Shown here piece after piece: positions 46,149 to 57,982 of a stretch of DNA of 64,000 nt. This DNA is from Bacillota bacterium. GTDB taxonomy: Bacteria; Bacillota; Sulfobacillia; JAJZYS01; JAJZLH01. Made by a program: the position numbers and the translations under genes. The stretch spans positions 85,879-149,878 of the forward strand of contig JAJZLY010000008.1 of assembly GCA_021850485.1 (NCBI GenBank), in the 5' to 3' direction. The notes below the pieces were generated by a model, which worked only from the letters and a program-made list of their open reading frames with translations, did no database searches and was not told where the DNA came from. How positions within the stretch are numbered: position 1 is the first letter of the stretch; the number at the start of each line of letters is the position of its first letter.

Positions 46149-46556
46149 TTACTCCGGAGCAGCTGCGCCTGCCGCCAGCAGATGGCGGTCGAAGGAAAAA
46201 ACTCTCCGTTGCGCCAGTGCGGCTATCAGCAGGGCGTCAACCCAGTCCACAGTCGTGCCGGCATAGATCTGCAACGCCTGCAGCACACCCGGCAGATCAT
46301 CGATCTCAATGCCGGTCATGGTCAGAAACTGACTGAGGACACGGGTGATGTCAGTTCTGGCCAGGCCCAGCCCATGGGGTGAAGCGGCGACGTAGACCAC
46401 CTCGGCCAAAATGGCTGGATGGACCTGGACGCGCAACTCGCCCAGTTGCGCCCGTTCGAACAACGCCTCAGCCGCCCGGGCTTGTCCTTCCGGACGGCCG
46501 TCCAAGAAGCGCAGGATCACATTGGCGTCCATTAAGCAGACCTCAGCTGTCTTCAC
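46149..46556 (-). CDS. PIN-domain toxin (VapC-like)
   Basis: About 135 residues. PIN ribonuclease acidic residues are visible in CLMDANVILRFL (first Asp), ILAEVVYV (Glu) and TVDWVDALLIAALAQ (Asp pair), with a final FDRHL. Start: the GTG at 46556 overlaps the antitoxin stop by 14 bases and keeps the first beta strand (EVCLMDAN). The ATG at 46532 would remove that strand, though GAGG precedes it. It likely cleaves RNA when the partner is lost. The RNA target is unknown. Confidence 0.82.
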   Translation of the reverse strand: MKTAEVCLMDANVILRFLDGRPEGQARAAEALFERAQLGELRVQVHPAILAEVVYVAASPHGLGLARTDITRVLSQFLTMTGIEIDDLPGVLQALQIYAGTTVDWVDALLIAALAQRRVFSFDRHLLAAGAAAPE

Positions 46557-46809
46557 GCAGGCTCTCCCTGTAGGCATCGGCCAGTTCTCGCTGGCGGGTC
46601 TGACGCAGCGCATCCAAGCTCGGCTGCGCCAGCGCAGACTGAAACGCGCCTCTCAGCTGCGATGGTGTCATCGACGGAACCGCGACCAGGTGTACCGACT
46701 GTGCCGTCAGGTCAAACCCGATGCGGTCTCCGGGCAAAACCCCCAGCGCCTCTCGCACCGCCTTCGGAATGTTGACTTGGCCGTTGGCGCTAACCTTGGC
46801 AGTGATCAT
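46543..46809 (-). CDS. AbrB/MazE-fold antitoxin
   Basis: 88 residues. The N-terminal SpoVT-AbrB swapped-hairpin DNA-binding domain (ITAKVSANGQVNIPKAVREALGVLPGDRIGF) is followed by a charged C-terminal tail that would wrap the toxin. Directly upstream of, and overlapping, the PIN toxin gene. Such antitoxins repress their own promoter; the AT-richer stretch at 46832-46865 upstream holds TATAGT and may be that promoter. Confidence 0.85.
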   Translation of the reverse strand: MITAKVSANGQVNIPKAVREALGVLPGDRIGFDLTAQSVHLVAVPSMTPSQLRGAFQSALAQPSLDALRQTRQRELADAYRESLREDS

Positions 46810-46998: not shown

Positions 46999-47175
46999 TC
47001 AGCCGAGCAACTGATTGGGCGTCAGGATGCGGGCGATTTCGTCGTCGATCAGATTGATCTTGCGATACGCCTCGTTGCGGTCATTGGGTTTGAGCTCAGC
47101 TGCTCGCCGGCGCAGAGTCTCCTTCTTCCGCTCCAACTCTGCCACCCGAGCCTGAATGTCTAGCGGAAAGTTCAT
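46999..47175 (-). CDS. Small charged coiled-coil protein, unknown
   Basis: 58 residues, starting MNFPLDIQARVAELERKKE, almost wholly helical and rich in Glu, Arg and Lys; one coiled coil is likely. A strong GGGAGG lies 7 bases before the ATG at 47175, which supports translation and picks this start over a 28-residue longer reading. No family recognised. It is last in the leftward run of the DNA-pump operon, 80 bases after the LCP-like gene, so it may be co-transcribed. Confidence 0.6.
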   Translation of the reverse strand: MNFPLDIQARVAELERKKETLRRRAAELKPNDRNEAYRKINLIDDEIARILTPNQLLG

Positions 47176-47255
47176 CGCTCTGCCTCCCTGGCGTTCGTTT
47201 GCGGTGCCATCGTGTTGAGTCCACCTTAGACTGCCGAAGCGCTTGAGACAAGGCG

Positions 47256-48089
47256 TCACTTGCCTTGCTCGAGAGCCAGGGCTGCTGCCTGCGCGTGCGG
47301 GTCCGCCACCGGCGACAGCACGCCGGTCAATTCCGCTGACCAGGCTCTAGCCACGTCGGCTGGCACCACCAGCCACTGGTCGCCGCTCGTGAAGTGCAAG
47401 ACGGCGCCTGGCACCACCTCGGCGCTCACGGCCGGACCCTCGCCCCACAGCCGCACCTCTGCGATCAAGGTGCTCCAAGGCAACGTGCCCGTGGTGTTGG
47501 CCCACACGCTTTCGGCGAAAAGCGGTGCCTTCAGCCATTGGCCGGCACTGCCCACCTGCGCCAAAAGCGCCACCGTGCTGGCCACGGCGGCGGAACTGCC
47601 GGATCCCGCTGCCACCTGCCAGCTGGCTACCACCTGGGCACCGCTCTCGGCCGTGGTGCCGACGCGCACGCCGCCCAACTGGTCGATCTCGGACGCCAGC
47701 GCCGGCAGAGGCATCACGGCGACCGGCACAGATGGCAGGCGGACTAATGCAGCGACCGTCTCGGCCAGCAGGCGGGTGCCACCGAAGGTATAGGCTCGGC
47801 CGATCTGCTGTGCCCCATAGCCGCTGAGCGTGACCCGGGTATCCGGCGGGATGATCAGCACGCTGGTGCGCCCGGCCTGATGGTTGACCAGCAACAAGAC
47901 GGCGGCCACCTGGACCACGCCACTTGGCCCTGGCGCCGGCAGCGTGCCGACCACCAGCACGGTGGGCGGCAGTGCAACTTTGGGCAGGTGGCTCAGTACA
48001 ATCAGGCCGCGGTGGATGGCAAACCCGGCGATCAGCATGATCACGGTCCCGATCAAAAGCCCCCGGCCCTGGCGGCGGCGCCGGCTCAT
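47256..48089 (-). CDS. LytR-CpsA-Psr-like membrane protein with degraded active site
   Basis: About 277 residues. A basic start and one membrane helix (about residues 10-30) precede an outside domain resembling LCP phosphotransferases. TSVLIIPPDTRVTLSGYG matches the usual SIPRDTxVxIPG, IGRAYTFGGTRLLAETVAALVRLPSVPVAVMPL matches NAAYxxGGxxLxxxTV, and IDQLGGVRV matches VDxLGGVxV. The catalytic arginine of the RDT motif is Pro and the Lys before NAAY is absent, so ligase activity is doubtful. The start ATG at 48089 overlaps the upstream gene's stop (ATGA); a 58-residue longer frame reads through that gene. Confidence 0.68.
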   Translation of the reverse strand: MSRRRRQGRGLLIGTVIMLIAGFAIHRGLIVLSHLPKVALPPTVLVVGTLPAPGPSGVVQVAAVLLLVNHQAGRTSVLIIPPDTRVTLSGYGAQQIGRAYTFGGTRLLAETVAALVRLPSVPVAVMPLPALASEIDQLGGVRVGTTAESGAQVVASWQVAAGSGSSAAVASTVALLAQVGSAGQWLKAPLFAESVWANTTGTLPWSTLIAEVRLWGEGPAVSAEVVPGAVLHFTSGDQWLVVPADVARAWSAELTGVLSPVADPHAQAAALALEQGK

Positions 48090-48634
48090 CGCTCCACCGC
48101 AGCCAAGGCTGCGAGCGCAGCACCAAGATCCGGGCCCACACCCACCTCGGCAAGCGTGCACTGGGCCACGGTGGTGGTGATCAGATCCAGTCGAGACAAG
48201 GGCGCCACCACCGCCAGGCGAAGCGGTACCACCTCTTGACCGTATTCCCGGTAGCGCCACCACTTGTGGCGGAGCACGGTGCCAGACTCTGTGCCCAGGT
48301 CCACCTCCACAGCCACTGGCATACCGCCCAGGTGGAGCAAGGCGTCCGGGTCGAGACTACGCGCACCGCCCGCTGGCGACCGATAGGGCAGGCGTGGCTC
48401 CACCGTCACCGCTTCGGGCGGGTGGCCGAGCGCCACCATGTCGACCAGCAGCTGGGCCACAGCCAGCTGATGCGCGAGCAGCCGGGGCAGGGGACCGCGA
48501 CACCACAGCCGATGCGATCTCCGATAGGTGAAGCCAGCCCTCTTCAGGTCCTGGCAAGAGGGGGCCCACCGCCCCAATTTGCGCCTTTGGCCAGCGCTGA
48601 TCAGCCCCAGTGCGGCCACTGCCTCAGGCACCAC
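48086..48634 (-). CDS. Replication-relaxation (Replic_Relax)-like protein
   Basis: 182 residues. The C-terminal half has the Replic_Relax pattern: SLDPDALLHLGGMPVAVEVD, GTESGTVLRHKWWRYREYG, then VVPLRLAVVAP. That is a nuclease-like beta-alpha core with conserved Asp, Glu and Lys (D..ExD..K). The N-terminal part contains YRRSHRLWCRGPLPRLLAHQLAV, resembling a winged-helix region. The family occurs on plasmids and integrative elements beside TraG/VirD4 genes, as here. Activity is not proven for the family. The GTG start overlaps the pump gene by 11 bases. Confidence 0.7.
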   Translation of the reverse strand: MVPEAVAALGLISAGQRRKLGRWAPSCQDLKRAGFTYRRSHRLWCRGPLPRLLAHQLAVAQLLVDMVALGHPPEAVTVEPRLPYRSPAGGARSLDPDALLHLGGMPVAVEVDLGTESGTVLRHKWWRYREYGQEVVPLRLAVVAPLSRLDLITTTVAQCTLAEVGVGPDLGAALAALAAVER

Positions 48635-50102
48635 GGGGTGTCGGCAACCTCACCAGCCGGGGGTCGAGCAGGCGGCCAGCCAATACCACCTGGACCAAGG
48701 CCAACCCACGCGGCAGTTGATGCACCAGTTCGGGCCGGAATTTGGGCTCCATGACCAGGGTGCGGCCTTTCACCAAGCCAGCGGCGTCCTCGGTTACCCG
48801 CACCCCCATCTTGGCTCCCAGCGTGTCCTTCAGGCGGAGCAGGTCCTCTCCCGACACGCCGCCCAACAGCACCCGGTTGCGACAGTTGGCCAGCACCGAC
48901 TGGGTGAGGGATTCCGGCAATTGGCCCAAGTTCTGATGCGCCAGCACAGCGCCTACCTGATCCTGGCGGGCCAGCTCGAGGAACTGGGCGAAGGAGCTGG
49001 TGGCGAAGGTCTGAAACTCGTCCACATACAAAAAGTGTGGCGCCCCCTTGGCCCGACCCAAGACAGCTTGCTGCAATCTGGCCAGGATATAGGCGCCGAA
49101 CAGCCTGCCGGCATCACCCAGCTGGCCGGCTGGCAAGGACACCACCAGCACCTCGCCGGCGGCCAAGATGCGATCCAACGGCAAGGCTTCGCTGCCGCTC
49201 ATCATCCGGCTGACCTCTGGGTGATCGGCCAGCGACTGCAAGGCGTTTCTCAGGCCCAAGGTGTACTCCCGTTGCGCCTTCACCGTCCACTGGGCGTACT
49301 CGCGCCGAAAGTAGGCCTTGACCGCCGGATCGGCGCAGCGCACCAGGACCTGACGGCGGACGTCTTCTTCCGCCAAAAACGCCTGCAAATCCGCCAAACC
49401 GGCGTGTTCATCAGGCACTGCCTTCACGGCCAGCACCGCCTGGCGCAGCAAGGTGCGACCCAGCGTGCGAAAGAAGCTGTCCGTGCTGGGAAAGAGCTTG
49501 TCCACAGCTTCCACCATCGCCCCAGCGGCCTGGTCGGGCTCGCCGGCCAGCGGGTTGAATGTGTCGGCAAAGCCCGGGCCCAGGGCGTAGACCGCTCTCC
49601 CCAGCCGCCTGGCTTCGGCTGCAGTTGCGGCCGCCAGGTCGCCCTTCGGGTCGATCACGGTGATCCCCACTGGCCGTCTCAGGTCCTGGCGGATGAGCGG
49701 TTGCAGCACACTTGCGGTCTTGCCCGAGCCGGTCGGTCCCAGGACATGCAGGTGCAGATAGCGGTCGTCCCGGGAAATCAGCACGCGGCTGCGCATCCAG
49801 CCACTGGTGCCAATCACCGCCGGATAGTCTTGATCCACTACGAAGCGGCTGCGCACCGACTGCCAGATCCACAGGGCCACCGAAACCTCGGCCAAAAAAG
49901 AGGCCGCAAGCCACCAGCCACCGGCGGCCTGTACCCCGGACAGCACCGGGACCACGACCCCGCCGAATAAGAACAAGATGCCAAGTCCATAGCGCAGGTG
50001 GAGCGAGCGGGCCAGTGGTGAACGCCAAAAACCGACCACCGCCACGGTGCCGAAGATCAGTGCCAGCTGCCACGGCCAGGGCTGGCTGTACGCCAAGATC
50101 AA
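48624..50102 (-). CDS. VirD4/TraG-like DNA-translocating ATPase
   Basis: 492 residues from the first ordinary start (TTG 50102). Membrane helices lie near the N-terminus (WQLALIFGTVAVVGF, LGILFLFGGVVVPV, WWLAASFLAEVSVALWIW). The motor domain has Walker A VLGPTGSGKTASVLQPLI, IDPKGDLAAA, Walker B FLYVDEFQTF and a final VLAHQNLGQLPESL (arginine/sensor region). Coupling proteins of this type pump DNA through conjugation pores, but no relaxase, VirB4 or pore gene is in the window. The frame is open 20 codons further upstream with another hydrophobic stretch (see findings on the start). Confidence 0.85.
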   Translation of the reverse strand: MILAYSQPWPWQLALIFGTVAVVGFWRSPLARSLHLRYGLGILFLFGGVVVPVLSGVQAAGGWWLAASFLAEVSVALWIWQSVRSRFVVDQDYPAVIGTSGWMRSRVLISRDDRYLHLHVLGPTGSGKTASVLQPLIRQDLRRPVGITVIDPKGDLAAATAAEARRLGRAVYALGPGFADTFNPLAGEPDQAAGAMVEAVDKLFPSTDSFFRTLGRTLLRQAVLAVKAVPDEHAGLADLQAFLAEEDVRRQVLVRCADPAVKAYFRREYAQWTVKAQREYTLGLRNALQSLADHPEVSRMMSGSEALPLDRILAAGEVLVVSLPAGQLGDAGRLFGAYILARLQQAVLGRAKGAPHFLYVDEFQTFATSSFAQFLELARQDQVGAVLAHQNLGQLPESLTQSVLANCRNRVLLGGVSGEDLLRLKDTLGAKMGVRVTEDAAGLVKGRTLVMEPKFRPELVHQLPRGLALVQVVLAGRLLDPRLVRLPTPRGA

Positions 50103-50174
50103 GTTGACGAATCCCAGTCCGATCGCCCACGGGCCGATGAGGCGGGCCGTCAGGCTCTTAATGCATGTTCCCTC

Positions 50175-52424
50175 CTAGTGCCGGATCTTCACCCGGGCGT
50201 CTTGGGCTGGTTCCAAGACGCTGGCACCGGCTGCCGCCAGGGCGTCGCGCTCCCAGGGATGACAGGTCAGCACCACCACCTGGCGATGGGCAGAAATCTC
50301 CGCCAGTGCCGTGACCAAACGGGCGTGGCGCTCGGGGTCGAGGTGGGCGGCGGGCTCGTCGACGATCAGGGGCACGGTTTCATCGGCAAACACCAGTTCG
50401 CAAAGGGCCAGCCGCAGGCTCAGGTAGGCCAGGTCCTGGGTGCCTTGGGACAACTCCTCAGGCGCGCGCAGGGCGATTTCTCCGGGCCCCGAGATGCGGG
50501 GATCGCCACTGTCTTGCAGTGTGGCCTGATTGTACCGCCCGCCGCTCAGCCGCTCCAGCCACCTGCCCATCCGGGCCGCCAGCTCCGGTCCCATCTGGCG
50601 GTGAAACTCGGCGCCGACCTCACTCAGCACCAGTTGGGCCAGGGCGAGGGCCTGGCGTTCGTGCTGCCGGCGGCCGACCAGGGCATCTGCCCGCCGAAAG
50701 GCGGCCTCCAGCTCAGGCAACTCGGTCGGTTCGCCCAACCGCCGGCGCAGGGCTTGGGCCAGGGCCTGACTGGTCACCTGACTGGCCTGCAGGGCGGCCT
50801 CCAGGCGCTGCACCTCGCGGTCTTGGGCGGCCAGGTCTCCCGCCTCGGCCGTGTCTGCCCCGTCTTGCCAGGCGACCAGCGTCGACTCAGGCAGATCGAG
50901 CAGCCGATTGTGGGCCTGCCTGGCGGCCACCAGCTGTTGTTGCAGTTCGCCCAAGCGGTTGCGTTTGGCCGCCAGTTCGCCGAGGTCTGTGCCCTCGCCC
51001 AGTCCCGCCATCAGGCGGGCCAGATCCGCCTCGGTTCGATTCGCCTGCTCGAGTCGAGTCTGGGCCGACGCCTCCAGCCGATCTGCCTCTGCCGCCCACT
51101 CCTGCTGCGCCAGCTGCTGTTGGCGCCAGCTTGCCCAGGCGGCTTCTACGCGCCGCACCAGCTCCAAGCTCAGCACTGACTCGCCAGCCTCTTGGGCCAG
51201 GGCAGACCGCCGGCTGGAGTCGCCGTGGGCGGCGCGCTTCAGCCGCAGCGCCAAGACGCAAGCTGCTATTGCAGCCACGAGCGCTACGCCGCCAGCCGCT
51301 GGCTGACCCGTGGCGAACAGGGCGGCCGCTGCTACCACCAGCACACCACTCGCCAGCCAAGGCCACCAGGTGACCTTTTGGCTCTGAACCGGCTGGCTCT
51401 TGTTCATCTCCTGCCACGCCCGGTCCACCCAGTCGGCGGCGATGGTCGGCGCTGGGCTAGCGGCCGCCGCCTGCGCACGCAGGGCCTCAGCGCGCTCCAT
51501 CTCCTGGTGGGCGCTCGTTTGCGCGGCGGTGATCGCTTCTTTGAGGCCGCGTGCCGCCTGCGGGTCGACCTGGGCCAAGGCCGCCAGCGGCTTGATCTCT
51601 TGCTCCAACCGCTCGATCTGGGCGCTGCTTTCGGCAAGTTCGGCGATCCGGCGCTGCGCCGTCCAGCGCCGGATGGCCGCCTGCTGGCGTCTCGCCTGCG
51701 CCAGGGCCTCGGTCTGCGCCAGAGCTGCCTGCTCTGCAGCCTGCTGGGCCGCTTGGTCGACCAGCGTGCTCTGGCGGCGCTCGGTCAGCACCCGGATTTC
51801 ATCCTCCAGTCGCTGGCGGCTGGCGATGGCCTGACCGATCTTGGTCTGGCGGGCCTGGTCGGTCTTTCCGACCTCGCCCAGCTGCGTCTCGATCAGCTCC
51901 ACCGCCCGTTTGACCGACACCGTCTCATCGCCACTGCTGGTCAGGTTCGAAGCGCGTTCGTGCAGGGCTTGTGTGTCGATGGCGCCGGTGGGCAGGTCGG
52001 AGATCAGGACGCTGGCCCGAAACATCTGGGCTGAGATCCCCGCCAGCAACTCCAGGGCGACCGCCGCTCGCTCGCCGTTTGGCTGCAGATCCTGGCCGGT
52101 GGCCAGGTCGGTGACCCTCAGATCGTCCTTGCGGCTGGCCAGGCGGCGGACTATGGCCAGACGCTGGCCGCTGGCCAAGACCACGTCCACTGCCACCGTG
52201 AAGTCTCCGCCTGCCCACGGCTTCAGACGGCTCACTTCAGGCCGGGCCCTGAGTCGGCTTCCATTCGCTTCCTGGGCACCGTACAGGGCGGCAAAAATCA
52301 CCTCTGCCAGTGTGCTCTTGCCGCTCTCGTTGGCTCCGTGCACCACGCAAAGATGCTCCGGCAGCGTCAACTCCAGCGTCTCGAACAGCCCGAAGCCACG
52401 GGCCCGCACCTTTTCAATAATCAC
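50175..52424 (-). CDS. YhaN/SbcC-like AAA ATPase with central membrane helices
   Basis: About 749 residues. Walker A HGANESGKST at residues 29-38; long coiled coils rich in Gln, Ala and Arg; in the middle two hydrophobic helices (WWPWLASGVLVVAAAALFAT and GGVALVAAIAACVLAL), as in Bacillus YhaN. A C-terminal ATPase half carries GGRYNQATL, LSQGTQDLAYLSLRLAL (signature) and LIVDEPAAHLDPER (Walker B). It would form a membrane-bound Rad50-like clamp with the YhaO-like nuclease. The GTG at 52424 overlaps that gene's stop by 11 bases. It is shorter than typical YhaN. Confidence 0.85.
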   Translation of the reverse strand: MIIEKVRARGFGLFETLELTLPEHLCVVHGANESGKSTLAEVIFAALYGAQEANGSRLRARPEVSRLKPWAGGDFTVAVDVVLASGQRLAIVRRLASRKDDLRVTDLATGQDLQPNGERAAVALELLAGISAQMFRASVLISDLPTGAIDTQALHERASNLTSSGDETVSVKRAVELIETQLGEVGKTDQARQTKIGQAIASRQRLEDEIRVLTERRQSTLVDQAAQQAAEQAALAQTEALAQARRQQAAIRRWTAQRRIAELAESSAQIERLEQEIKPLAALAQVDPQAARGLKEAITAAQTSAHQEMERAEALRAQAAAASPAPTIAADWVDRAWQEMNKSQPVQSQKVTWWPWLASGVLVVAAAALFATGQPAAGGVALVAAIAACVLALRLKRAAHGDSSRRSALAQEAGESVLSLELVRRVEAAWASWRQQQLAQQEWAAEADRLEASAQTRLEQANRTEADLARLMAGLGEGTDLGELAAKRNRLGELQQQLVAARQAHNRLLDLPESTLVAWQDGADTAEAGDLAAQDREVQRLEAALQASQVTSQALAQALRRRLGEPTELPELEAAFRRADALVGRRQHERQALALAQLVLSEVGAEFHRQMGPELAARMGRWLERLSGGRYNQATLQDSGDPRISGPGEIALRAPEELSQGTQDLAYLSLRLALCELVFADETVPLIVDEPAAHLDPERHARLVTALAEISAHRQVVVLTCHPWERDALAAAGASVLEPAQDARVKIRH

Positions 52425-53496
52425 TGGCCCGCCTCCCCTCCAGTGCGGCCAGACCGATGCGCAAGGCATCCGCCAGCAGCTGGCGTTGGGCCTCGTCTGC
52501 CTGCTCCATCTGAGCCATGATCCGGCCAGCGAAGCGCCCGCGCACCGTGAACTGATCGGTGAGATCGACCGGTGGCAGCCGCAGGTCGCGCACCTCGCAG
52601 TGCAGCCAGCCGCTGGCGAGCTCTCCTTGCCAGCGTCCGACCGGCCACCCGTCTTGGGCTGCCGGGCCGACCAGTTCCACCCGCAGCAAAGTCGTCTCCG
52701 GGTCCCACTCCCGTATGCGCACCGCGAGTTCGTCCAGGGCCTGCTGGTCGGTGCGAGCCGCCAGATCGACCGTCATGGTTTCGTACCGGCAGCGGGCCAG
52801 TGGTAATGATCGCCACTGCTTTTGCCGGGTCTTCAGGTCCAGATCCACGACCAGCGCACCGTGCACACCGGGCTCGTCGAAGCCAAGCGGCTCCAGCGAC
52901 CCAGCATAGGCACCGAGGTCAGCGATCGGCATCGGTTTATGGATGTGTCCGACCGCTGCCCAGATGGCGCCCAATTCAGCGAGCCGGGTGCGGGTGAAGG
53001 GCGCATAGTCGCTGTCTCCCGGCAACTTGTCACAGTCGCCGTGAAAGACCACGATGTCCGGCCTTTGGCCTGAGGGGAAATCTGCCAGCGGGTCGGAAGG
53101 TTCGTGTTCGGCCAGAAAGCCGCGGCCCCAGATGGCGGCATCAGCCACCCTGTGACTTTGCCAGGCGCCGCCAAAAACCACCACGTTGTCCGGTCGCTCC
53201 AGCTTCCAGAAGCTGGCTGCCTCCCAGGGGTCGTGGTTGCCAGGGGCGATCAACACGGGCACAGGAGTGAGCGAGGCCAGCAGGTCGAGCACCCACTTCA
53301 CCGTGCCAAGCCGGGTGCTGCGCCGCTCGAACACGTCACCGGGCAGCAACAAGGCATCCGCCTGTAGATCGCGCACCAACTCGATCAACCGCTGGAAGGT
53401 TGCGATCTGGTCCTGGCGCCGGCGTTTGCCCAACTCGTCGTCCAAGGTGGCAAAGGGACTATCCAGATGCATGTCGGAGGCCTGCACAAGGCGCAT
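52414..53496 (-). CDS. YhaO/SbcD-like metallophosphoesterase (DNA exonuclease)
   Basis: 360 residues. Calcineurin-like phosphoesterase with the metal motifs SDMHLDSPFATLDDE (DxH), LLPGDVFERRS (GD), APGNHDPWE (GNHD), VVFHGDCD (GD) and VGHIHKP (GHxH), in the order of Mre11/SbcD. The C-terminal capping domain begins about residue 240. It is probably a double-strand-dependent nuclease driven by the ATPase encoded next. This is the first gene of the leftward run and is divergent from panD, 162 bases away. Confidence 0.87.
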   Translation of the reverse strand: MRLVQASDMHLDSPFATLDDELGKRRRQDQIATFQRLIELVRDLQADALLLPGDVFERRSTRLGTVKWVLDLLASLTPVPVLIAPGNHDPWEAASFWKLERPDNVVVFGGAWQSHRVADAAIWGRGFLAEHEPSDPLADFPSGQRPDIVVFHGDCDKLPGDSDYAPFTRTRLAELGAIWAAVGHIHKPMPIADLGAYAGSLEPLGFDEPGVHGALVVDLDLKTRQKQWRSLPLARCRYETMTVDLAARTDQQALDELAVRIREWDPETTLLRVELVGPAAQDGWPVGRWQGELASGWLHCEVRDLRLPPVDLTDQFTVRGRFAGRIMAQMEQADEAQRQLLADALRIGLAALEGRRASDY

Positions 53497-54199: not shown

Positions 54200-54634
54200 C
54201 TAGCCCCGTGAGTGATACAGATCGAAAAAGGCTCTCGGGCTGAGCACCGACACCGCTCCACATAGAGCCACCGGAAAGTGTCGGAGGTTCCCGGTGACCA
54301 GCACTGCCGGAGGGGTGACTGCGGCTGCAACCTCGAGAAACTTGCAGTCTGCAAGGTCCGGGAGCCGCCGGGCCAAGGGCCGGGCAGCTACGGTCAGGGC
54401 GTTGTACTCCAATGCCTCCAGCACGACGCCAACCAGTGTCTGATCGAAGCGGAATGCCGGCCTACCAAGCACGTCACGGTATTCCAAGAGGATGCGGGCA
54501 TCCACAGCAATTTGCTGACGGCCGCTCAGGATGGACCCCAGCAGCATGGCGGGCATGCTATCGGCCTTGAGCAATGCAGACACGATCACGTTGGTGTCAA
54601 CGACGATGAAGGGGCTCGGCGCCAGAGACTTCAT
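54200..54634 (-). CDS. PIN-domain toxin (VapC-like), second module
   Basis: 144 residues. PIN fold: FIVVDTNVIVSALL (first Asp), ILLEYRDVL (Glu) and LPDLADCKFLEVAAAV (Asp pair), of the PF13470-like subgroup common in Bacillota and Cyanobacteria. Overlaps the upstream antitoxin by 4 bases (ATGA). It probably acts as an RNase when free; its target is unknown. Confidence 0.82.
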   Translation of the reverse strand: MKSLAPSPFIVVDTNVIVSALLKADSMPAMLLGSILSGRQQIAVDARILLEYRDVLGRPAFRFDQTLVGVVLEALEYNALTVAARPLARRLPDLADCKFLEVAAAVTPPAVLVTGNLRHFPVALCGAVSVLSPRAFFDLYHSRG

Positions 54635-54921
54635 TCGGTAATCGGTCGCTCGCGCCGCGCCGCAGCAATCTCGGACAATACCTGCTGATCGTTCATGCGA
54701 TCCGCGCCCTGGCTCGCACTTCGCGTCTGCAGTTCAACCATGGCCAAGACCGCACGCGCCTGGCGCTGGGCACGTAGCATCAGGTCAAGCGACTCTGGGG
54801 TGACCGCTGTCAGGAGCGCCACCGGCGTCCCACCTGAGGTGATAACGGCGTCAGCATTGCCCAGGTCTTTCAGAATCTGAGCCGATCGACTCCTCAGGTC
54901 ACGGATGGTGACAAATCGCAC
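54631..54921 (-). CDS. Phd/YefM-like antitoxin, second module
   Basis: About 96 residues, MRFVTIRDLRSRSAQILKDLG then ADAVITSGGTPVALLTAV, the Phd/YefM N-terminal DNA-binding fold, with a helical C-terminal toxin-binding part ending ERPITE. The start is the GTG at 54921 with AGGGGG 7 bases upstream; a longer reading to 54966 lacks one. Likely self-repressing with the toxin encoded next. Confidence 0.78.
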   Translation of the reverse strand: MRFVTIRDLRSRSAQILKDLGNADAVITSGGTPVALLTAVTPESLDLMLRAQRQARAVLAMVELQTRSASQGADRMNDQQVLSEIAAARRERPITE

Positions 54922-55185
54922 ACGAACACCCCCTGGCATACATTTCGCGACATTATCGTAGCACACTTCTGTTCCGTATCGGCCCGCTTACGCTCCACGT
55001 CAGGTTGGCACGAGCGCTACCAAGCGCGGCGCTGGACCCTAACGACGGCCGACGGCACGCTGCTCATCGAACATGACTCGAAGGAACGTGAAGGAACCCA
55101 CGGCCCAACTTTTCGAGTCTTAGTTCATGATAGAGATTGCACGACCCCTTCACCGTGTCCTCAGTAGAAAGGTCGGTTACACGAA

Positions 55186-57309: not shown

Positions 57310-57735
57310 TCAGCGGGGAACTGGGCTGACGGCAACCACCTCGAGCAGGCCAGACAAGCCCGTGAAGTCTTGTGGATTCCTGGTGAACAGCGGGAGTTCC
57401 GCCGCCAGAGCGGTGGCGGCGATCAGCAGATCAAACGCCCGGCGACCAGGAACGGTCCCGCCAGCCGCAGCCACTGCCGCGTACATGCGGGCGTATGCTC
57501 TGGCCACATCAGCATCTACCGGCAGCGGGTCGAAGCTGGCCTCCATCCGCTGCAGCCGGTCCTGGCGCCGGGCCCGCTCCTCAGAACTGTGCGCTGCATG
57601 CGGTCCCGCTGCCAATTCAGCCATGGTGACAGCCGACACGGCCAGTTCCCGAGGCAAGTCGACCGGGTCCAGGTGCTCCAAGTCGATGACGACCGACGTG
57701 TCGACCAGCCCGCGCTCGTGGCGCTCACTATCCAC
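57310..57735 (-). CDS. PIN-domain toxin (VapC-like), third module
   Basis: About 141 residues. PIN acidic motifs: RGLVDTSVVIDLE (Asp), VTMAELAAGPH (Glu), and RRAFDLLIAATALAAELPLFTRNP (Asp, then Asn-Pro), the classic VapC layout. The GTG at 57735 overlaps the antitoxin stop by 8 bases; the reading to 57771 would start inside the antitoxin gene. Mycobacterial-type VapC toxins with this layout cleave tRNA or rRNA. Confidence 0.84.
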   Translation of the reverse strand: MDSERHERGLVDTSVVIDLEHLDPVDLPRELAVSAVTMAELAAGPHAAHSSEERARRQDRLQRMEASFDPLPVDADVARAYARMYAAVAAAGGTVPGRRAFDLLIAATALAAELPLFTRNPQDFTGLSGLLEVVAVSPVPR

Positions 57736-57982
57736 GGGGCTGAAGGTCCTGGTCGAGATACCTGTCCACATCTAGGCGAAACGTCGTCCAGTCAATCGTC
57801 GGCGCGCCCTTAAAGGCGGCCACAACCACTTCGGCACTGACGAAGGATCGGCTGCGTATGGGCACTAATTCCCCGACCCCAACTCCGTTGCGGGTGACGA
57901 TGAACGTCTCGCCGCGGTCGAGGGCGCGCATGACATCCCCACTGTTGTTGCGCAGTTCGCGCTGGGTCAGTTGTCTCTTCAT
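57728..57982 (-). CDS. Phd/YefM-like antitoxin, third module
   Basis: 84 residues, MKRQLTQRELRNNSGDVMRALDRGETFIVTRNGVGVGELVP. This is the Phd/YefM fold (TQRELRNNSGDVMRAL is close to the VapB/Phd consensus), with a C-terminal toxin-binding segment. It overlaps the PIN gene. The gap before fdhD (57983-58097) should contain the operator; no clear palindrome was found there. Confidence 0.86.
   Translation of the reverse strand: MKRQLTQRELRNNSGDVMRALDRGETFIVTRNGVGVGELVPIRSRSFVSAEVVVAAFKGAPTIDWTTFRLDVDRYLDQDLQPRG

Follow-up and report, generated by a model that had tools for sequence, protein, structure and literature searches.

Why would a bacterium keep a DNA pump of the conjugation type in one operon with a pair of proteins that process DNA ends? 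The question is raised by a leftward run of genes in a Bacillota bacterium of the class Sulfobacillia, within the 64,000-nucleotide stretch of contig JAJZLY010000008.1 that was analysed as a whole and is called here the window. The run encodes a YhaO-like nuclease, a YhaN-like ATPase, a VirD4-type coupling protein, a Replic_Relax protein (RR), a protein of the LCP family and a 58-residue protein. The answer that we favour, tentatively and as a possibility only, is that VirD4 and RR are a coupling protein and its relaxase, domesticated without VirB4 or a mating pore and joined with YhaO-YhaN and a dead LCP protein in the repair or exchange of the cell's own DNA.

The key to this reading is RR. 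The original prediction had stated that no relaxase was present here, which proved to be wrong: RR matches PF13814 (Replic_Relax; E 3.5e-12, 47.2 bits against a cut-off of 25.3), which represents the MobC/MOBC superfamily of relaxases (PMC5357655 Table 1) and serves as a relaxase marker (PMC11104534). MOBC relaxases are related to PD-(D/E)XK restriction endonucleases (PMC12857230). In two alignments of RR, one with 13 chromosomal and the other with 12 mostly mobile homologues, D97, E110, D112 and Y128 were invariant, and K124 was conserved at 90% or more in both. A single AlphaFold prediction gives the core (residues ~50-145) ten-residue mean confidence values (pLDDT, predicted local distance difference test) of 73-93, the best core blocks reaching 83-93, in the order helix, beta strands, helix, strand. 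D97 and E110/D112 are placed at adjacent strands, D97 just ahead of strand 98-102 and E110 near the end of strand 105-111, and K124 lies within helix 118-134. The leading Foldseek matches in PDB were mostly PD-(D/E)XK nucleases, namely Can2, VC1899, Card1, McrC, Bax1 and restriction enzymes, with probabilities of up to 0.99; a profile search of PDB found no RR relatives, and tblastn found no RR homologues in plasmids. Based on the profile match and the predicted fold, membership of RR in the MOBC relaxase family is therefore well supported, and RR may cut or nick a DNA strand through its putative PD-(D/E)XK site.

The few known mobilizable plasmids that have their own VirD4 also carry a MOBC relaxase (PMC5704250), and MobB-MobC of CloDF13 is the model pair of a coupling protein and a MOBC relaxase (PMC7431656). 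VirD4 and RR are such a couple, as in CloDF13-type mobilizable plasmids. The best CloDF13 frame aligned with RR (VPDRLAEL...VAFEVERT) in register with the proposed motif, a weak match (E 0.07) to a record whose deposited frames are broken. The breaks lie in the mob region of that record (L241, 6469-9259) and leave MobC unannotated there. The vague annotation "replication-relaxation" also gains a concrete sense, that of a MOBC relaxase adjoining its coupling protein. As a separate observation, two Bacillales megaplasmids (L127 and L128) that carry VirD4 and a MOBC-type "replication-relaxation" gene, the former together with Tad/Flp pilus-type genes, were typed as non-mobilizable by MOB-suite, which may miss this relaxase family.

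VirD4 itself matches PF02534 (T4SS-DNA_transf, named after the type IV secretion system, T4SS; E 6.3e-9), and its Walker A motif GPTGSGK and its PKGDL and DEF boxes are invariant across 12 homologues. Its N-terminal region is hydrophobic, with one segment above the hydropathy threshold, so that the protein has both the Walker A/B nucleotide-binding domain and the N-terminal membrane anchor of a T4SS coupling protein. It is not a HerA by profile, as DUF87/HerA reached only 0.027 and the protein scored as T4SS-DNA_transf instead. A role as replacement of FtsK was rejected, FtsK being present elsewhere in the genome. The start of VirD4 is probably an AUU codon at 50162, 20 codons upstream of the TTG at 50102, which is not a likely start. 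The in-frame stretch upstream of this TTG, which encodes the hydrophobic N terminus, is conserved throughout the three species of the genus. The start codon is ATT in two of them (G000, the window's genome, and G002) and GTG in the third (G001), it is preceded by a ribosome-binding site rich in purines (AGGAGGG or AGGGGGG), and the extended N terminus resembles that of coupling proteins from other members of the order.

Positions of the operon genes, the proposed RR motif and the neighbouring toxin modules in the window
Feature	Positions	Strand	Remarks
YhaO-like (Mre11/SbcD-type) metallophosphoesterase nuclease	52414..53496	-	360 aa; leads the operon
YhaN/SbcE-like SMC/Rad50-type ATPase	50175..52424	-	749 aa; GTG start; 11-base overlap with YhaO
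VirD4/TraG-type coupling-protein ATPase	48624..50162	-	512 aa; probable AUU start, 12 bases past YhaN
RR (Replic_Relax/MOBC-relaxase-type, predicted PD-(D/E)XK protein)	48086..48634	-	182 aa; 11-base overlap with VirD4
Proposed RR catalytic motif D97 ... E110-x-D112 ... K124	48263..48346	-	conserved residues and predicted fold
LCP-like membrane protein (pseudo-LCP)	47256..48089	-	277 aa; 4-base ATGA overlap with RR
58-residue predicted coiled-coil protein	46999..47175	-	last gene of the run
AbrB/PIN pair	46149-46809		conserved in G001
PIN/antitoxin pair	54200-54966		absent at the same position in G002
PIN/antitoxin pair	57310-57982		absent at the same position in G002

The five main genes belong to the families that had been claimed for them, all above the curated Pfam cut-offs, and the overlaps of 11, 11 and 4 bases were confirmed. 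The gap of 73 bases between YhaN and VirD4 was not; with the VirD4 start at 50162 it shrinks to 12 bases, and the run from YhaO to LCP is therefore translationally tight, with junctions of an 11-base overlap, a 12-base gap, an 11-base overlap and a 4-base ATGA overlap. This arrangement is not limited to one strain: each of the three species in the genus shows this gene order and these couplings, at protein identities of 55-85%, the order being whole in G002 and split in G001 across two contigs by a break inside VirD4. Pairwise ratios of nonsynonymous to synonymous substitution (dN/dS) between the window's genome and its sister species were 0.13-0.17 for VirD4, the most conserved gene, 0.22-0.31 for RR, 0.18-0.28 for YhaO, 0.28-0.42 for YhaN, 0.24-0.30 for LCP and 0.14-0.24 for the 58-residue protein. 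With values of 0.13-0.42 over all operon genes, purifying selection is indicated and these are living genes, the degenerate LCP included. The genomes compared are drafts (that of the window is 97% complete), so absences are not absolute.

Does this tight coupling imply one function, as had been argued? Within the genus the argument holds, whereas in other genomes YhaO-YhaN is not linked to VirD4-RR, which stands with a MinC paralogue instead. Among the 101 relatives surveyed, VirD4 is present in 34 and RR adjoins it in 20, which belong to the window's order and to families f10 and f45; YhaO-YhaN lies beside the pair only in the three species of the genus. It could thus be supposed that two unrelated pairs merely share a transcript, YhaO-YhaN repairing breaks in the cytoplasm and VirD4-RR doing something else, which would fit the lack of linkage in any examined genome outside the genus. 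Nevertheless, the 12-base spacing, the ribosome-binding site and the overlaps are kept across three diverged species and no terminator-like site was found in the YhaN-VirD4 gap, which makes such a chance association very improbable.

A coupling protein with a relaxase would usually bring a mobile element to mind. The original prediction was right that VirB4 and integrase were missing: in each of the three genomes of the genus FtsK is the sole AAA_10 match and scores below the cut-off (other pore genes were not searched), and the Pfam scan showed no integrase among the flanking genes. The genus yielded no PF03432 relaxase. The window has no tRNA and its region of 44-58 kb no tandem repeats, and neither flanking direct repeats nor a composition shift appeared at the operon, so that neither the VirB4 of a conjugative element nor the integrase and attachment-site repeats of an integrative mobilizable or conjugative element were seen. 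Nor was an element with relaxase, pore and clear ends found just outside the operon. Moreover, the chromosomal surroundings of VirD4-RR are similar across families, including the chromosome-sized contigs of G045, G081 and G088. In the VirD4 tree the chromosomal copies follow taxonomy and stand separate from those of plasmids, Amycolatopsis, Oscillospiraceae and IMG/VR; the copies of G063 and G092 group with those of plasmids. The species tree, built on the single gene rpoB, is used only loosely since it separates the long-branched genus of the window from its order, on weak support. Taken together, the VirD4-RR pair is most likely a fixed, vertically inherited chromosomal locus that does not look mobile here.

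It may be argued that the pair is instead the remnant of an integrated mobilizable element that has lost its integrase and ends and came to lie downstream of yhaON by chance. The layout of VirD4 with MOBC is indeed that of CloDF13-type plasmids and some integrative mobilizable elements, both genes occur in Bacillales plasmids, the pair is common among the IMG/VR contigs found and, among the matches listed, it forms compact modules with a large serine recombinase in Amycolatopsis (L122:7038-12411) and in an Oscillospiraceae metagenome-assembled genome (L124:675-5801). A remnant would hardly be expected to show the strong purifying selection seen here (VirD4 dN/dS 0.13), and the explanation, already weakened by the taxonomy-like tree and by the shared chromosomal surroundings, and lacking any visible integrase, flanking repeats or composition shift, appears rather unlikely. 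Three of the IMG/VR contigs (L136-L138) carry an Amidoligase_2 gene downstream of the pair.

The surroundings of the fixed pair suggest another role. In 17 genomes (G003, G005-G009, G011-G014, G020, G045, G061, G073, G081, G088 and G095), coordinate comparison puts VirD4 0.4-2.5 kb from a gene for a MinC_C protein, for example at L040:9043-11945 and L045:7571-10479. All of them except G013, which is 78% complete, hold another MinC elsewhere. The gene is divergent from VirD4 in the window's order; in f10 and f45 it follows VirD4 and is read the same way. Exceptions to this adjacency in the VirD4 group are G004 and G010, whose VirD4 lies at the end of a contig, and the genus of the window, in which no MinC was found; in G004, no RR directly follows VirD4. 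G030 and G050 were not counted among the chromosomal pairs, their VirD4 having no adjoining RR. Perhaps the septum or the poles are where VirD4-RR and the second MinC act together, by cutting trapped DNA and pumping it, and YhaO-YhaN replaced MinC in the genus. The two orientations of the MinC paralogue and the second copy elsewhere would agree with this, as would the main localization of MobB, the coupling protein of CloDF13, at the two poles (PMC7431656). The genus keeps the pair without a detectable MinC, however, and has FtsK, and a MOBC nuclease is no obvious segregation enzyme, hence we regard septal DNA clearing as unlikely. In G003, a member of the same order, VirD4-RR is followed by an intact LCP gene and has MinC upstream; the likely history is that VirD4-RR stood first with MinC, then acquired LCP, and in the small-genome genus lost MinC and captured yhaON.

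The partners gained in the genus would be of the Mre11-Rad50 type. YhaO matches PF00149 (Metallophos; E 2.9e-13), its best PDB matches are Thermotoga Mre11/SbcD, and it reaches 8.9e-11 with TIGR00619 sbcd, under the cut-off of that model; the motifs DxH, GD, GNHD and GHIH are intact in its sequence, and no other Mre11-type protein was detected in any of the three genomes. YhaN matches PF13476, PF13514 (AAA_23/AAA_27) and SMC_N above cut-off, its scores with Rad50 models being below cut-off. Hydropathy analysis predicts two adjacent central transmembrane segments at residues 351-369 and 375-393, a pair expected of YhaN-type proteins. The metallophosphoesterase is thus followed by an SMC-like ATPase with a central membrane hairpin, as in a YhaO-YhaN pair. 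In Bacillus pumilus, yhaONM is an SOS-induced putative cluster for double-strand break repair, and the title of a work cited in the same study ties SbcE/YhaN to break repair and competence in B. subtilis (PMC3896406).

The LCP-like protein matches PF03816 (LytR_cpsA_psr; E 5e-7) and had been called degenerate, with good reason. Compared with TagU and with the intact homologue downstream of VirD4-RR in G003, the Asp of the DT motif, the Arg of PRDT and the Lys of KIN are replaced in the window protein, and the catalytic residues are gone in that of G001 as well; it thus lacks the catalytic Asp and Arg of an LCP glycopolymer transferase. The 58-residue gene, which had been suggested as a possible member of the operon, has no family match in Pfam or NCBIfam, yet it is conserved in both sister species at 77-82% identity and is under purifying selection.

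Uptake of DNA and defence against it had both been considered as functions. ComEC (PF03772) is absent from 22/22 genomes of the chromosomal VirD4 group, compared with 10/79 other members of the class; none was found in the window's genus, in its whole order or in f10 and f45. Fisher's test gives p 7e-15, with the limit that the 22 genomes are largely one lineage in the rpoB tree and not independent, so it is a correlation and no evidence of replacement. As no ComEC was found in genus or order, ordinary ComEC-based uptake is an unlikely partner of the operon and was set aside.

An SMC-like ATPase, a nuclease and a pump of the HerA/FtsK superfamily form a common defence grammar. The operon could accordingly be a membrane sentinel against plasmids and phages, in which YhaO-YhaN captures incoming ends, RR shreds and VirD4 pulls. 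PADLOC profiles of the MADS system do match YhaN (mad3, PDLC04135; 1.8e-21) and VirD4 (mad8, PDLC04140; 1.1e-19), and PIN modules lie nearby. The mad8 model matches coupling proteins of plasmids and mobile elements as well (45-70 bits), so that its match is not specific, and no methyltransferase or other MADS gene was found among the operon proteins; as only these generic ATPase profiles match, a MADS system was rejected. That mad8 matches ordinary conjugative coupling proteins is a likely source of false defence calls. All three PIN modules noted within 12 kb are present, but two do not belong to the unit: they are probably recent insertions, given their absence in G002. Since the locus is, moreover, vertically inherited and widespread in its group rather than patchy, a defence role seems quite doubtful.

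We return to a domesticated coupling protein-relaxase couple that handles the cell's own DNA. The locus is still best read as a machine that handles DNA at the membrane, given the membrane segments of YhaN and VirD4, the nuclease motifs of YhaO and RR, the selection and the coupling. The analysis established the order of the genes, their coupling, the selection on them, the conservation of active-site residues, predicted folds and vertical synteny, and a mechanism consistent with these may be outlined. VirD4-RR would have become fixed and vertically inherited in one group of related lineages and, in the window's genus, would have joined YhaO-YhaN and the dead LCP protein in one operon. Judging from their families, the membrane-tethered YhaO-YhaN would capture and trim broken or incoming DNA ends; RR would then cut or nick one strand, and a VirD4 hexamer driven by ATP could draw that strand across or along the membrane. 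Anchoring of the complex at the cell envelope might, speculatively, fall to the pseudo-LCP and the coiled-coil protein. Recombinational repair would be a likely outcome, as would, more speculatively, cell-to-cell exchange of own DNA.

Several observations weigh against this proposal. The Foldseek E-values of RR are marginal (best 5.8e-3) and the N-terminal quarter of its model is poorly predicted; a repeat-based search found no cluster resembling an origin of transfer (oriT) near the operon, and no LexA box was found upstream of YhaO. Furthermore, joint function rests on three species, because the YhaO-YhaN link is confined to one genus, and the pairing with MinC elsewhere in the group suggests a role linked to division.

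How does such an operon compare with known systems? In CloDF13 and other VirD4-MOBC mobilizable elements (PMC7431656; PMC5704250), a VirD4-type protein and a PD-(D/E)XK MOBC relaxase are likewise encoded together with no pore of their own. The window's pair differs in being chromosomal and vertically inherited, in having no recombinase or recognizable oriT, and in sharing an operon with YhaO-YhaN; in sequence, the motif-bearing CloDF13 frame is only weakly similar to RR. The Bacillus cluster has YhaO and YhaN(SbcE) in the same order, with the membrane hairpin in YhaN, but there YhaM follows, whereas here VirD4, RR and LCP do. The archaeal Mre11-Rad50-HerA-NurA operon similarly joins a Mre11-type nuclease, a Rad50-type ATPase, a pump of the FtsK/HerA superfamily and a second nuclease. 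The window operon holds neither a true HerA nor an RNase H-fold NurA, its pump being VirD4-type and membrane-anchored and RR being of the predicted PD-(D/E)XK fold. In Thermus, TdtA-NurA of the integrative conjugative element ICETh1 donates chromosomal DNA by transjugation, using a membrane hexameric pump and a nuclease with no classical T4SS (PMC5365140); TdtA, however, is on a mobile element, and transjugation needs recipient competence, while the window's lineage has no detected ComEC. As the protein families differ, likeness to HerA-NurA and TdtA-NurA means working in a like manner and not membership.

Finally, the archaeal Ced/Ted systems import DNA with domesticated conjugation machinery, and Mre11-Rad50-HerA-NurA has been proposed to feed them (PMC9905601). 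No VirB4/CedB-type partner was found in the window's genus, pilin and VirB6 not having been searched. Perhaps a bacterial counterpart exists here, in which a lineage without ComEC domesticated a coupling protein and a MOBC relaxase for exchange or repair of chromosomal DNA and one genus joined them to Mre11-Rad50-type processing; we consider this unlikely. In 2023, takeover of conjugation machinery by a host for its own DNA was stated to be unreported outside archaea with Ced/Ted (PMC9905601). If the proposal is true, a vertically inherited coupling protein-relaxase pair, joined to Mre11-Rad50-type proteins in one genus, would be a bacterial case, and it would open to direct test how a cell without a plasmid relaxosome produces and moves a transferable strand.

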